NCBI RefSeq assembly: GCF_024585265.1
Contig: NZ_CP036533.1
Coordinates: forward strand, 3,667,001 to 3,731,000
From: Bradyrhizobium sp. WBAH42
GTDB taxonomy: Bacteria > Pseudomonadota > Alphaproteobacteria > Rhizobiales > Xanthobacteraceae
Reading direction: 5' to 3'
Length of the DNA: 64,000 bases
The position numbers were made by a program, and so were the translations under genes. Positions 37,950-42,559 of the stretch are shown here, piece after piece; the stretch's first letter is position 1, and the number at the start of each line of letters is the position of its first letter. The notes beneath the pieces were generated by a model. It was given only the letters and a program-made list of their open reading frames with translations. It was not told the DNA's origin and made no database searches.

Positions 37950-37952
37950 TCG

Positions 37953-38001
37953 TCAGAACCCGTAGAGCCGCGCCGGATTGTCGACCAGGATCTTCTTGCG
38001 C
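37953..38001. repeat. Left 49-bp direct repeat flanking the island
   Basis: It is identical over 49 bases to 42511-42559. Read on the minus strand it encodes the last residues of the amidohydrolase (KKILVDNPARLYGF and stop). It starts 3 bases after the RND stop. Confidence 0.95.
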
Positions 38002-38093
38002 TTTCCGGCCGGCGATCTGGCAGAGAGGGTAAGATCGACGGGGTCGAGGCCGAGGAGAGGCACAATTTTTGATTGCTGCTCTACTATTTGACT

Positions 38094-38116
38094 TTACCAG
38101 TCCAGAAAACTGGTAA
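38094..38116. promoter_or_regulatory. 8-bp inverted repeat upstream of the island operon
   Basis: ttaccagt (38094-38101) and actggtaa (38109-38116) with a 7-base loop, 72 bases before the first island ATG, in AT-rich DNA. It is not followed by T on the plus strand, so an operator fits better than a terminator. Confidence 0.4.
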
Positions 38117-38188
38117 AAAACTACAACGGTTGGTTGAGCCGTGGTGGTCGGCGTCGATTGCGTCTCTCTTTATTGGTAGGGCTAATTC

Positions 38189-38545
38189 ATGAAGACCATT
38201 GTCCCGCTGAGCGCCTCGAATGGGGCGCAGTTTTACGTCGAAGTGGAAGATTCCGAGGCGGACAACTGGGTGGCGAGATCCGAGCCGCGTTCGCCGCTAT
38301 CTGATCAACCTGAGGGATCGGAGCTAACCTCGGCAGCGGGAGATGCGTTTGAGGCCATGAGTTCTCTGCAGGAGGGGCTGCGCGACGTGATCGCGAAGAT
38401 CCATTCTGCCTTAACGGACTCGGCTCCGAGTAGTTGGAAATTGGAACTCAATGTCGGCTTTAAAGGCAAGACCTCCCCTATTCCGGTCCTGCTGTCAGGC
38501 GAGGCTAACGCGACTTTGAAGCTTCAACTGGAATGGAAGCGCTGA
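38189..38545 (+). CDS. Trypco1-like (trypsin-co-occurring domain 1) small protein
   Basis: A 118-residue soluble protein. Its layout fits the Trypco1/TCD1 family known to occur next to trypsin-NTPase proteins: an N-terminal beta strand region (KTIVPLSASNGAQFYVEV), a central helix (AFEAMSSLQEGLRDVIAKIHSAL, about 55-75) and a C-terminal beta sheet ending in LKLQLEWKR. The LELNVGFKG stretch matches the family's conserved vefG-type core. Function is unknown; a partner, adaptor or target of the protease is an inference. Its stop overlaps the next gene by 13 bases, so the two are co-translated. Low GC agrees with transfer. Confidence 0.72.
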   Translation: MKTIVPLSASNGAQFYVEVEDSEADNWVARSEPRSPLSDQPEGSELTSAAGDAFEAMSSLQEGLRDVIAKIHSALTDSAPSSWKLELNVGFKGKTSPIPVLLSGEANATLKLQLEWKR

Positions 38546-41500
38546 GAAACCTAGATGGCGGCTGGCGAGCCGCAGTGGTTCGGCTGTTCGCTGCGGACCA
38601 CAACGATTCAAGTAGGTTTGGTACTTACCTCGGGTCGGCGTTTCTCGTCAGCGAGACGCAATTGTTGACATGTCGACACGTCGTTGAGGGCCAAAGCGGC
38701 GAGTTGTACGCTTCCGGTCCAGCTTGGACAGGCCGGCAAAAAATAGTTAACATCTTAAGAAGTGCAGATAGGGATGTCGCTCTCTTAGAAGTGGCCGACG
38801 ATCTTGATCGATTGGTTGCGCCACTGTTCTGTCGATCAAATCGAGATGTAATCGACAATAGGGTGGAAGTGACAATCGCTGGATATCCAAGCGCCGTCGG
38901 TCCACTTGAATTTCCGAGAATGAAGCTGCGTTCATACGAAGGCATGCTGAATACCTGGGTTCTGCATACTCATATTAGCAAAGGGTTGAGTGGTGGACCC
39001 GCGATAGTTGATGGTGAAGTTGTCGGGATTGCTCAAGCCCGAGAGACGGACGGTGGTAAGAGTTACGTCATCCCCCTCAATGCCGTGTCTGACCTTCTGT
39101 CTCAAAGACTCAAATCAGGTGAGAGAGGAAAATTTAGCGGCACAAATCAAGCTCCTTCAGCTCCGGCTGAATTCATAGGGCGTACTGAGATACAGAGGGA
39201 ATTGAGACAATCGCTCTTCGAGGAAGCCAACCGCGTTGTGTGTCTGAAGGGGCTTGGCGGAGTAGGCAAGACTTCGTTGGCCCAAACGCTAGCGTGGGAC
39301 TCAGAGGTAAGATCGCGGTTTCCGGATGGAGTGTTGTGGACGACGCTTGGTCAATCGCCAGATGTCTTGTCGTGCCTCCACGAAATCCTGATGCCGTTGG
39401 AGAGAACAACGTCTCAATATGCATCGATTGCGCTGGCTTCCGCGCAGCTGCGCATTTTATTGAGCAAGGCGCGCTTTCTTCTCGTTCTAGACGACGTCTG
39501 GGCGTTCGAAGACGTGAGACCTTTTCTCGTGGCAGGGCTCAATTGTCGGATAGTCATAACTACTCGCGACAAATACGTAGGAGTCGCGGCCTCGGCGAGA
39601 ATTTTTGACGTAGGGGTGCTCTCTCTGGATGAAGCGCAAGCGCTTCTGCGCGCGAGGCTTTCGTCCGATGCGGCAGCAGCGATGAATGGTGAGCAAACCG
39701 AGACATTGGCACAATTGGTTGAAGGCCTTCCGCTCGCGCTGGAGATAATCTCCGTACATCTGACCGACGGAATCTCCGCCCATCTTCTAATCAATGAGTT
39801 GAGGACCGAGATTGGCAGGCTGAGGGCGTTGACGATCGATGCGGCCTATGATGGAAATCGAAAGCTTAGCCTAGAGGCGACGCTTACGCTGAGTTTCGCT
39901 GCCCTGCAGCCTCAAAGTCGTCGGGCGCTGTTGCTGCTGGGATTATTGCGTTCGCAAGGCCTGATTACGCCGGGTGTAACTTCTATTTTGACGGGCGACA
40001 CGCTCTTCGACGCAACCAAACTTCTTTCTTTTCTTGCGGCGAAATCGCTCTTAATGGCCGCCCAGACTGAAGCGGGTGAGCGTGTCTATCGGATGCACGA
40101 TCTGATAAGAGATAAATGTCGGCTAGAGCTGCTTGACGGGGCCAGCAGGGGCGACCAGCAGAACCCCTTCCGTGGTAACGCGCAAACCTTTGTTGCAAGC
40201 CAAATTAAGCAACGTAAAGGGCAGGAGCCGTGGTCAAGGTTAGGCAAAGATAGTTACCTTTCAAGGCATCTGGTCTTTCACTTGATTGAATCGGGAGATC
40301 TTCCCTCTGTATTCGATCTTCTCGAAGAAGATGAATTTTCGTCTGATGCGGTCACCGTGAAAAACGGATGGCTCGTCAGCCAGGAGCGTTGCGGGTGGCC
40401 GCACCAATTCTTGTCCGACGTTGATCTTGCGTGGTCTCTGGCTGAGTCGACTTTTGCAAAAGTCATGACCGATCGGAGCGCGACGTTAACGCAAGAGGCG
40501 GTCAGTAGCTTGGGTTATATTATTCGAGCCGCGTTCGTGACAGCGTCCGTCATAAATCAAAACGCAAGAATATCTAAGCGACTGGTTCGCCTTCTCCTTC
40601 GACATGGCGTGTGGTCCCCGGGGCAGGCGGTTTATGCGGTCGGTCGATCTTTGGATCCTTACGAGTTGGTAGACTTTGCCAATGAGTTGCCGGAGCCTTA
40701 CAATTCTCAGGCGCTTGCACTAGCTCTCGCTCGTCTGTCTCAGCTTTTTCATAGAGCTGATGCATCTAACGTCCTATCGGCGCTTGCTGCAGCTCTTTTT
40801 CTGTTTGACGGGCAGAAAAAGGAAACGACCAGGAGGGTAATCGGCGAGTTGTGCGGCCCGACAAGCCAATTGCCCTTGAGGTCCCTCGACGATAGGGAGC
40901 TGGTCGACTACGCCGTAGAAGCGCTCGTGTATGATATAAATGTGCGACCGGTCGTGTTTGATCGTGTGGTGGAGTTCTTGCTATCCCGGTTGGTAGCTGA
41001 GTTGGAGGCAGGCGAAACGAGCCGAGTGTATATTTTCGCCGAGCGATACGTGCGGCTTCTTTCTGAGTTGCTTTTCAACTACCTTTGGAAGAGCCAAACA
41101 GTTTCCGGCATTCATCGTGCTGTGACATCTCTAGGCAAGTTTCGATCAAATATTTCTACGGTTCTGGAGCGGTTAGCAGACGAGGGTGTGGCATCTTTAG
41201 TTAGCCTCTTGCCTCGCGAGCGGATCACCGCTCTCTTTGATCAGACGTTCGCTAAATTCCAAGCGGCTTCGGCTCGATTGGACACATTGGAGGTTGGGCA
41301 AATTGGAGAGTTGCGCTCCTCGCTTAGCGAGCTCGCGCGAGTGATGATTCTCTGCGTAGCAAATTGTGACGACGGTAGACTTGATGATCTGGTCGGCCAA
41401 TTTGCGCGGAGGTACGAAAGGTTTAGATCAGACATATACGTATTTTTGGCTCTGCTTGGCAAGGACCAGGTCGTTCGTTCGATTCGTCAATTGGGGCCGT

Positions 41501-42441
41501 TCGCTCCGATGGCAGACCAGTTGCAATGGGTATCGTCGTTTGGGCACGAACAGCTCCGTCGAGATATCTTTTCAAGTTCAATCGTTGAATTGGAAAAGGG
41601 GGCGGTGAGAGCGAATTCTGGCGCGATTCTAGAAATTTGCGAGCGACATTTTTCTAGGATGAATTATGAAGAGCAGCGTCGTTTGGCTAAGCTGCTGATA
41701 AGGTTGCCCTACAGTACGGCAGTGACGGCTGTTGTGGTCCGCATCTTTGATGAGCTTGAGGATGTTGAAGCAGAATCCACCTATCTCGCGGCGAGAGAAG
41801 TCGGCGATCCAATCGGTCTCTTCGTCCTTGGCTGTGCTCGTACTTGTCGGGGCGGCGCTTGGGACGAGGCCGCGGTTGATAATTTGACTGGCGTTCTTCG
41901 GTCAATCTTGCAGAAGGCAGAGACGGTCAGGGCAGTTGTTGACGTGGTTACATTCGTGAAATTGCCATCCAGTGTGTCGGCACGCTTCTTGGAGATTGCT
42001 ATCGAGTCTGCTCGAAGTATAACCGACGATGAGCCGGTCTTTCAGGCATTCGTACGTGTAGCCAGCTTGGCGCCCAATGGCGCAAGCTTGGTCGCGGTCG
42101 CACCTATTCTCAGCGGCGTTCCTGGTATTGTGCTGTCGGACGAACAAATTAGAGCGTGCACGAAGATCAAGCTCCGCTCGCTGGACGCGAGTGAGCCCTT
42201 TAGACGTGCAACCACGAAGATCGAAAATGCGCCCGACGAGTATTTCGGAAGTATGCTCAGCGATACAGAACTCGCTGCCGAGCTGTCGAAGAAACTCAAG
42301 CAATTAATTACCACCGATTCAAGATCTGCCCTGTATAGCGATGTGGTTCCCTATGTCCGAGAGCTTGCATTGCGGGGCTATGAGGATGTGGCGCTAGAGA
42401 CTTCGTACGCCATCCACGATTGTTATAGGTGGTGGCGGTAG
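38533..42441 (+). CDS. Trypsin-like protease/NB-ARC STAND NTPase with long helical C-terminus
   Basis: A 1302-residue multidomain protein. Residues 1-200 form a trypsin-fold protease with an intact triad: H49 (TCRHV), D81 (DRDVAL) and S153 (GLSGGP). Residues 212-530 form an NB-ARC STAND NTPase: Walker A GLGGVGKTS (240-248), Walker B LLVLDDVW (316-323), sensor ITTRD (342-346), GLPLALE (398-404) and MHD (521-523). Residues 531-1302 are mostly helical with no repeat family I can name; they are the likely ligand sensor. The layout equals that of NLR-type immune proteins with a protease effector. Oligomer-driven protease activation is an inference. Codon use and GC differ from neighbouring genes. 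Confidence 0.88.
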   Translation: MEALRNLDGGWRAAVVRLFAADHNDSSRFGTYLGSAFLVSETQLLTCRHVVEGQSGELYASGPAWTGRQKIVNILRSADRDVALLEVADDLDRLVAPLFCRSNRDVIDNRVEVTIAGYPSAVGPLEFPRMKLRSYEGMLNTWVLHTHISKGLSGGPAIVDGEVVGIAQARETDGGKSYVIPLNAVSDLLSQRLKSGERGKFSGTNQAPSAPAEFIGRTEIQRELRQSLFEEANRVVCLKGLGGVGKTSLAQTLAWDSEVRSRFPDGVLWTTLGQSPDVLSCLHEILMPLERTTSQYASIALASAQLRILLSKARFLLVLDDVWAFEDVRPFLVAGLNCRIVITTRDKYVGVAASARIFDVGVLSLDEAQALLRARLSSDAAAAMNGEQTETLAQLVEGLPLALEIISVHLTDGISAHLLINELRTEIGRLRALTIDAAYDGNRKLSLEATLTLSFAALQPQSRRALLLLGLLRSQGLITPGVTSILTGDTLFDATKLLSFLAAKSLLMAAQTEAGERVYRMHDLIRDKCRLELLDGASRGDQQNPFRGNAQTFVASQIKQRKGQEPWSRLGKDSYLSRHLVFHLIESGDLPSVFDLLEEDEFSSDAVTVKNGWLVSQERCGWPHQFLSDVDLAWSLAESTFAKVMTDRSATLTQEAVSSLGYIIRAAFVTASVINQNARISKRLVRLLLRHGVWSPGQAVYAVGRSLDPYELVDFANELPEPYNSQALALALARLSQLFHRADASNVLSALAAALFLFDGQKKETTRRVIGELCGPTSQLPLRSLDDRELVDYAVEALVYDINVRPVVFDRVVEFLLSRLVAELEAGETSRVYIFAERYVRLLSELLFNYLWKSQTVSGIHRAVTSLGKFRSNISTVLERLADEGVASLVSLLPRERITALFDQTFAKFQAASARLDTLEVGQIGELRSSLSELARVMILCVANCDDGRLDDLVGQFARRYERFRSDIYVFLALLGKDQVVRSIRQLGPFAPMADQLQWVSSFGHEQLRRDIFSSSIVELEKGAVRANSGAILEICERHFSRMNYEEQRRLAKLLIRLPYSTAVTAVVVRIFDELEDVEAESTYLAAREVGDPIGLFVLGCARTCRGGAWDEAAVDNLTGVLRSILQKAETVRAVVDVVTFVKLPSSVSARFLEIAIESARSITDDEPVFQAFVRVASLAPNGASLVAVAPILSGVPGIVLSDEQIRACTKIKLRSLDASEPFRRATTKIENAPDEYFGSMLSDTELAAELSKKLKQLITTDSRSALYSDVVPYVRELALRGYEDVALETSYAIHDCYRWWR

Positions 42442-42510
42442 TTGCGGGGCTGTCTAGCTTCTCCCGTCATCCAGAATAGCCGAGATTCCAGGCTTCTGGG
42501 CTAGCAGGGA

Positions 42511-42559
42511 TCAGAACCCGTAGAGCCGCGCCGGATTGTCGACCAGGATCTTCTTGCGC
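42511..42559. repeat. Right 49-bp direct repeat, within the amidohydrolase 3' end
   Basis: An exact copy of 37953-38001. It contains the stop codon (42511-42513, complement) and last 14 residues of the amidohydrolase. It is 70 bases past the NB-ARC gene. Confidence 0.95.

Follow-up and report, generated by a model that had tools for sequence, protein, structure and literature searches.

Pairs of Trypco1 and trypsin have been described from MoxR-vWA (VMAP) systems, proposed ternary conflict systems (Kaur et al. 2020, PMC7159879). In both Hachiman and Avs1 the trypsin head of an oligomerising sensor has been shown to cleave a partner that is encoded just upstream (PMC12799240). Trypsin-STAND (signal transduction ATPase with numerous domains) fusions and Trypco1 are already published, and no experiment on Trypco1, named in 2020, is reported in the accessible text of the literature searched, where the term occurs in only two papers from that year onwards. 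Here we describe a two-gene locus in a 64,000-nucleotide stretch of the Bradyrhizobium sp. WBAH42 genome (contig NZ_CP036533.1, positions 3,667,001 to 3,731,000; referred to as the window), in which a Trypco1 gene (gene 1) precedes a gene for a receptor with a trypsin-like head and an NB-ARC switch (gene 2). With a probability of roughly 0.55, we read gene 2 as an immune receptor resembling NLRs (nucleotide-binding leucine-rich repeat proteins) and the apoptosome, with a proteolytic output, Trypco1 as its protease partner, and the two genes as residing on a non-autonomous mobile cassette. What is new here is a repeat-bounded insertion of 4.5 kb that carries this pair as its only genes, plus a second case at a tRNA-Leu gene. 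Neither a stand-alone Trypco1 and trypsin-NB-ARC pair nor its insertion of the attachment site (att) type was found in the literature searched, as far as its accessible text goes (supplementary files aside, and with thin coverage of subscription papers).

Architecture of the two genes

Both open reading frames of an earlier sequence-only reading of this DNA were recovered at the same positions on the plus strand: gene 1 (118 aa) at 38189-38545 and gene 2 (1302 aa) at 38533-42441, an overlap of 13 nt from which it is probable that they are made together. The small protein is indeed Trypco1 (PF19493: E 7.8e-13, 49.3 bits against a cut-off of 24.6; NCBIfam NF041216: 35.7 bits against a cut-off of 23). 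Going by its sequence or a structure model, the gene 2 product has a trypsin-type head with its triad, a complete NB-ARC switch and an APAF-1-like arm, followed by a variable C-terminal region of its own that ends in a better conserved cap.

The protease (residues 10-190, 38560-39102, plus strand) matches Trypsin_2 (PF13365) above the curated cut-off (E 2.3e-12). Its triad, H49, D81 and S153, is intact as first noted, sits in conserved motifs and is invariant across ten aligned proteases (the window protein, P0003, P0025 and seven neighbours of Trypco1). Six residues before the catalytic serine, where classical trypsin has an aspartate, gene 2 has H147, so that its protease need not cleave after lysine or arginine. 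Among curated defence models, RT-Protease_XI fits the head best (E 2.4e-14), with weaker matches to LmuA (1.4e-5) and HamA (0.0015).

The switch with its winged helix (residues 206-535, 39148-40137, plus strand) matches PF00931 above the curated cut-off (E 8.4e-25) and is complete, as the sequence-only reading had it: Walker A, Walker B, R345, GLPL and MHD are all present. An alignment of 22 NB-ARC proteins shows no variation at G243, G245, K246, D320, R345 and P400 and hardly any at D321, H522 and L524, and M521-H522-D523 is identical in the ortholog P0003. Apaf-1 is the first match of the gene 2 model by fold and also a strong one by profile; NB-ARC, winged helix and helical arm superpose on APAF-1. 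Three more NB-ARC matches above the cut-off occur in the same genome (G000:C1 7802906, 1593164 and 6899743; L002-L004).

Everything beyond the switch had been described as a tail of 770 residues of no family. This does not hold for the whole tail, since residues 536-740 (40138-40752, plus strand; matched part about 554-733) are recognisable by profile and fold comparison as the APAF-1-like arm, but it does hold for about 741-1302, for which no relative except P0003 was found. Here divergence is concentrated in the putative sensor (residues 741-1240, 40753-42252, plus strand), with 25.7% identity to P0003 against 42.6% for the C-terminal cap (residues 1241-1302, 42253-42438, plus strand), which ends in RWWR and shares its terminal WW with four relatives. 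Profile comparison of 741-1240 gave no relative, the tail profile matched no solved structure, and no fold was obtained for residues 741-1302 or for Trypco1. Protein searches with the tail returned one protein each besides itself and were not exhaustive, because the ortholog P0003 was missed. Pfam matches to leucine-rich repeats, CARD or WD40 were absent from gene 2 up to E 0.1; membership of the NLRs in the strict sense was rejected for want of the leucine-rich repeats.

The arm is common to eight of the 12 relatives tested, and these carry a variety of heads. A caspase domain (PF00656) is listed for P0002 and P0122; P0004 lists NB-ARC only, its first 250 residues being caspase-like by eye. 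Other heads are PF13271 (P0005), presumably DUF4062, PF14130 (P0006), which we take to be a nuclease-type domain, and EAD4 (L037, L038). A Calothrix plasmid protein, as annotated, begins just before the NB-ARC. A preprint (PMC13174449) reports that DUF4062 acts in an anti-phage system as a TIR-like NADase. Judged by these domain matches, the chassis from NB-ARC to arm is evidently reused with different heads. The proteins of L037, L038 and L039, cyanobacterial plasmids, join NB-ARC and the same arm (two with the EAD4 heads) to tails apparently made up of numerous, almost identical units of about 33 residues, whose shuffling is a possible means of fast sensor evolution.

Insertion at the amidohydrolase gene

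The pair is bounded by a 49-bp direct repeat that had escaped the sequence-only reading; its left (37953-38001) and right (42511-42559) copies are identical at 49 of 49 positions. The right copy is the 3' end of an amidohydrolase gene (PF04909, 42511-43473, minus strand), which was the insertion target and stays whole. Between the copies lies an insert of 4509 bp (38002-42510) with two genes only, every other open reading frame in it being at most 133 aa and none of its genes a recombinase. The low guanine-plus-cytosine (GC) content noted earlier is borne out (0.531 for the insert against 0.656 for the remainder of the window, i.e. 53% against 66%). The neighbours of the insert, an efflux pump and the amidohydrolase, are ordinary, and the pair is an insertion between them.

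Among 59 other genomes of the genus, the two flanks abut over 45-59 bp in at least 22, with one repeat copy and no insert; in ten more they are 117-2424 bp apart (distances were measured in 32 of at least 59 genomes). The single copy matches 44-49 of the 49 bases in six empty-site genomes that were fetched (L068-L073). Going by these alignments, the pair was evidently inserted precisely, with a copy of the 49-bp gene end now on either side, and given the abutting flanks the notion that it is old chromosome here was rejected.

A second pair of Trypco1 and trypsin genes (L030:9553-12181) has a tRNA-Leu gene on one side and, on the other, a 60-nt, 80% copy of that gene's 3' part. Here too the insert is low in GC (50% against 65%) and no recombinase was seen in it, and in at least five congeneric genomes of a 60-genome search (G205, G008, G016, G214, G245) the flanks abut over 61-66 bp. 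The stretches searched at L029, L032, L033, L050, L052 and L057 yielded no repeat that brackets the pair. Cis-mobilizable elements (CIMEs) are insertions at the 3' end of a gene that are bounded by direct repeats and have no recombinase. The insert is likewise flanked by direct repeats at the end of a gene, lacks a recombinase and has an empty counterpart site in relatives; in sequence terms it qualifies as a putative CIME-like element.

Upstream of gene 1, a perfect 9-7-9 inverted repeat (38093-38117; TTTACCAGT-N7-ACTGGTAAA) occurs once in the window and in 0 of 100 shuffles; it is a candidate operator or recombination site. No sigma-70-like promoter was found in 37950-38540.

The distribution of gene 2 is narrow. 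Among 265 congeneric genomes its protein is full-length only in its own, the 17 other matches covering at most 364 residues, and a profile of gene 2 and P0003 matches 20 of 275 genomes of the class, again with only the own genome full-length. The cluster to which the protein belongs is recorded on 11 contigs. Scans of genome contigs (with weak seed patterns) found no relative and a viral contig scan no match. Phage records held no match for gene 2 and plasmid records none for Trypco1; gene 2 matches 37 plasmid records, none over 80% of the query.

Trypco1 loci in other genomes

Trypco1 is present in three of 265 congeneric genomes, four of 397 of the order and nine of 398 of the phylum (eight above the cut-off, the match in G843 being below it), the own genome included each time. 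We read the flanks at 13 of the 14 other matches (L029-L033, L050-L057), a small sample from one phylum. Taken broadly, the conserved pairing on which the sequence-only reading depended is found: a protease gene adjoins Trypco1 at eight of these 13 loci, and at three of the eight it encodes a trypsin-NACHT fusion. The exact combination with trypsin-NB-ARC stands at the present locus, with no second instance among those read.

The adjoining protease is a trypsin at L030, L032, L050, L052, L054 and L057; at L033 it lies upstream of Trypco1, has no Pfam match and was called a trypsin from aligned motifs. L050 and L052 encode trypsin-NACHT-FGE proteins with Trypco1 upstream, and L057 a trypsin-NACHT protein with another tail, its NACHT match being below the cut-off (25.0 against 26.7 bits). 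Counting the window, there are four instances of Trypco1 followed by a trypsin-STAND receptor, and they fall into three architectures. Seven downstream junctions range from a 4-nt overlap (L050, L057, L032) to a 14-nt gap (L054), with start codons of our choosing. An FGE gene is near Trypco1 at L051, L053 and L054, together with CHAT, TIR or trypsin; MoxR-like labels at these loci were assigned by eye. The L030 protease matches both the LmuA (E 8.6e-17) and the Avs1b (2.1e-11) models, so that the proteases partnering Trypco1 and those of LmuA and Avs1b appear to be related sets.

At L029 (8552-10304), a subtilisin gene (PF00082) begins 4 nt after Trypco1, which is therefore not tied to trypsin alone; a serine recombinase gene is about 0.6 kb away. 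At L057 (5193-16821), the pair is located between a helicase gene (PF04851, PF00270) and a gene for a 1546-aa protein that has weak AAA matches and whose start, judged by eye, resembles a nuclease; these surroundings are possibly a defence island.

In an alignment of 13 Trypco1 proteins only M1 and a near-invariant glycine are conserved, and no enzyme-like conserved residues are seen. Matches to solved structures are weak, the best (E 0.016) being a designed helical repeat protein.

Proposed mechanism, alternatives and known systems

Of the NLR-like protease immune system first proposed for this locus, the architecture stands (motifs, APAF-1-like core, exchange of heads, mobile insertion, pairing of Trypco1 with proteases), whereas ligand sensing, oligomerisation, anti-phage defence and the role of the small protein we infer. 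Following the logic of STAND receptors (PMC7159879, PMC12169576), the receptor would at rest be closed and ADP-bound. Binding of an invader molecule, most likely a phage protein, by residues 741-1240 would then lead to nucleotide exchange and to assembly of several copies into a wheel, in which crowding would turn on the protease heads; cleavage of Trypco1 and/or other proteins would arrest or kill the cell before the invader can multiply. Trypco1, whose synthesis directly precedes that of the receptor, would most likely bind the protease and set its threshold, as inhibitor or escort. We give such a regulatory role slightly less than even odds and favour it over that of a cleaved effector because enzyme-like conservation is lacking across the 13 proteins.

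Several observations weigh against the immune reading. The pair is not located among known defence genes, and Trypco1 has no adjacent protease at five of the 13 loci (L031, L051, L053, L055, L056). The trypsin part of the structure model is poor, mostly with a pLDDT (predicted local distance difference test) score under 50; no trypsin fold is among the 50 fold-comparison matches listed, which has little weight as the model is poor there. In the profile search the bacterial regulator AfsR scores above APAF-1, and many NB-ARC relatives (in a search that scored 8000 candidates only) are transcription regulators. Gene 2 alone did not find APAF-1 among solved structures at E 0.01, though it found plant NLRs, and the arm was undetectable in P0021, P0025, P0031 and the L057 protein. 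Finally, the variable region 741-1240 could merely be under weak constraint.

Trypco1 might instead be an effector that the activated trypsin head cuts and whose fragment acts on the cell, like the pro-nuclease of Avs1 and Hachiman. Those systems share the layout, since their oligomerising sensor bears a trypsin head and the partner is encoded directly upstream (PMC12799240). The absence of enzyme-like residues, the subtilisin at L029 and the five loci without an adjacent protease make this the less likely role. An ordinary regulated protease of physiology or signalling with an AfsR-like switch would fit AfsR as the top profile match and the many relatives that are SARP/AfsR-type or TPR regulators; we consider it improbable given the recent insertion (full-length in one of 265 congeneric genomes), the arm shared with caspase-headed proteins and the lack of any DNA-binding domain in the Pfam search of gene 2.

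The tight gene overlap and the mobile two-gene unit without recombinase would also suit an addiction module, with Trypco1 as the protease's antidote and maintenance of its own element in the genome as the main effect of the pair. A receptor of 1302 residues with a switch and a variable region far exceeds the needs of such a module, and this explanation seems more improbable still. As to the insertion, the 49-bp repeat may not be an att site at all and may reflect homologous recombination or a remnant of a larger element: the insert has no recombinase and, among the matches listed, two nearby copies are found only in the own genome; with no other occupied site among them, there is therefore no such support for an active integrase. 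The 49/49 identity at both ends, the target at the 3' end of a gene that is left intact and the matching arrangement at tRNA-Leu in L030 (60 nt, 80%) speak for an att site, and render this alternative rather unlikely.

The immune reading keeps our preference. NB-ARC is the same kind of switch as in animal cell death and plant disease resistance, which makes the pair a good candidate for a defence device that senses infection. Should the receptor assemble in response to a trigger and its own protease heads be switched on, it would be a one-piece version of the arrangement of apoptosome and caspase. A stand-alone two-gene unit is moreover a simple setting for learning the role of Trypco1, and the repeat-bounded insertion suggests a route by which such receptors may pass between genomes without a recombinase of their own. 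More tentatively, and with some doubt, it might be argued that pairs of Trypco1 and trypsin-STAND form a class of their own, a minimal recombinase-less mobile immune cassette: self-contained bacterial apoptosomes in which the protease is within the wheel and Trypco1 acts as the gate, in which NB-ARC and NACHT are interchangeable as the switch and a variable helical region and FGE as the sensor, and which spread as att-flanked two-gene units.

Compared with CIMEs, the insert shares the direct repeats at a gene 3' end and the lack of a recombinase, but it is only 4.5 kb with two genes, and its mobilisation is putative. The APAF-1 apoptosome has the same NB-ARC, winged helix and helical arm; gene 2 differs in having no CARD or WD40 match and a protease that is built in rather than recruited. 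Like the VMAP ternary systems, a proposed conflict system, the locus places Trypco1 beside a trypsin-like peptidase, but the trypsin is fused to an NB-ARC receptor and the insert, with two genes only, has no MoxR, vWA or VMAP genes, so that membership was rejected. Avs1 and Hachiman (Tuck et al. 2025, PMC12799240) likewise have an N-terminal trypsin head on a sensing ATPase and a partner gene immediately upstream; here the switch is NB-ARC with an APAF-1-like arm and the upstream gene is Trypco1, not an MBL-fold (metallo-beta-lactamase) pro-nuclease, for which reason membership of Avs1 (AVAST type 1) was also rejected. STAND-FGS receptors with trypsin heads (Kaur et al. 2021, PMC8195603) share the trypsin head, STAND switch and C-terminal sensor, and the proteins of L050 and L052 are of this same kind, with Trypco1 upstream; gene 2 differs from them in carrying NB-ARC and a variable, helical-looking sensor instead of NACHT and FGE.

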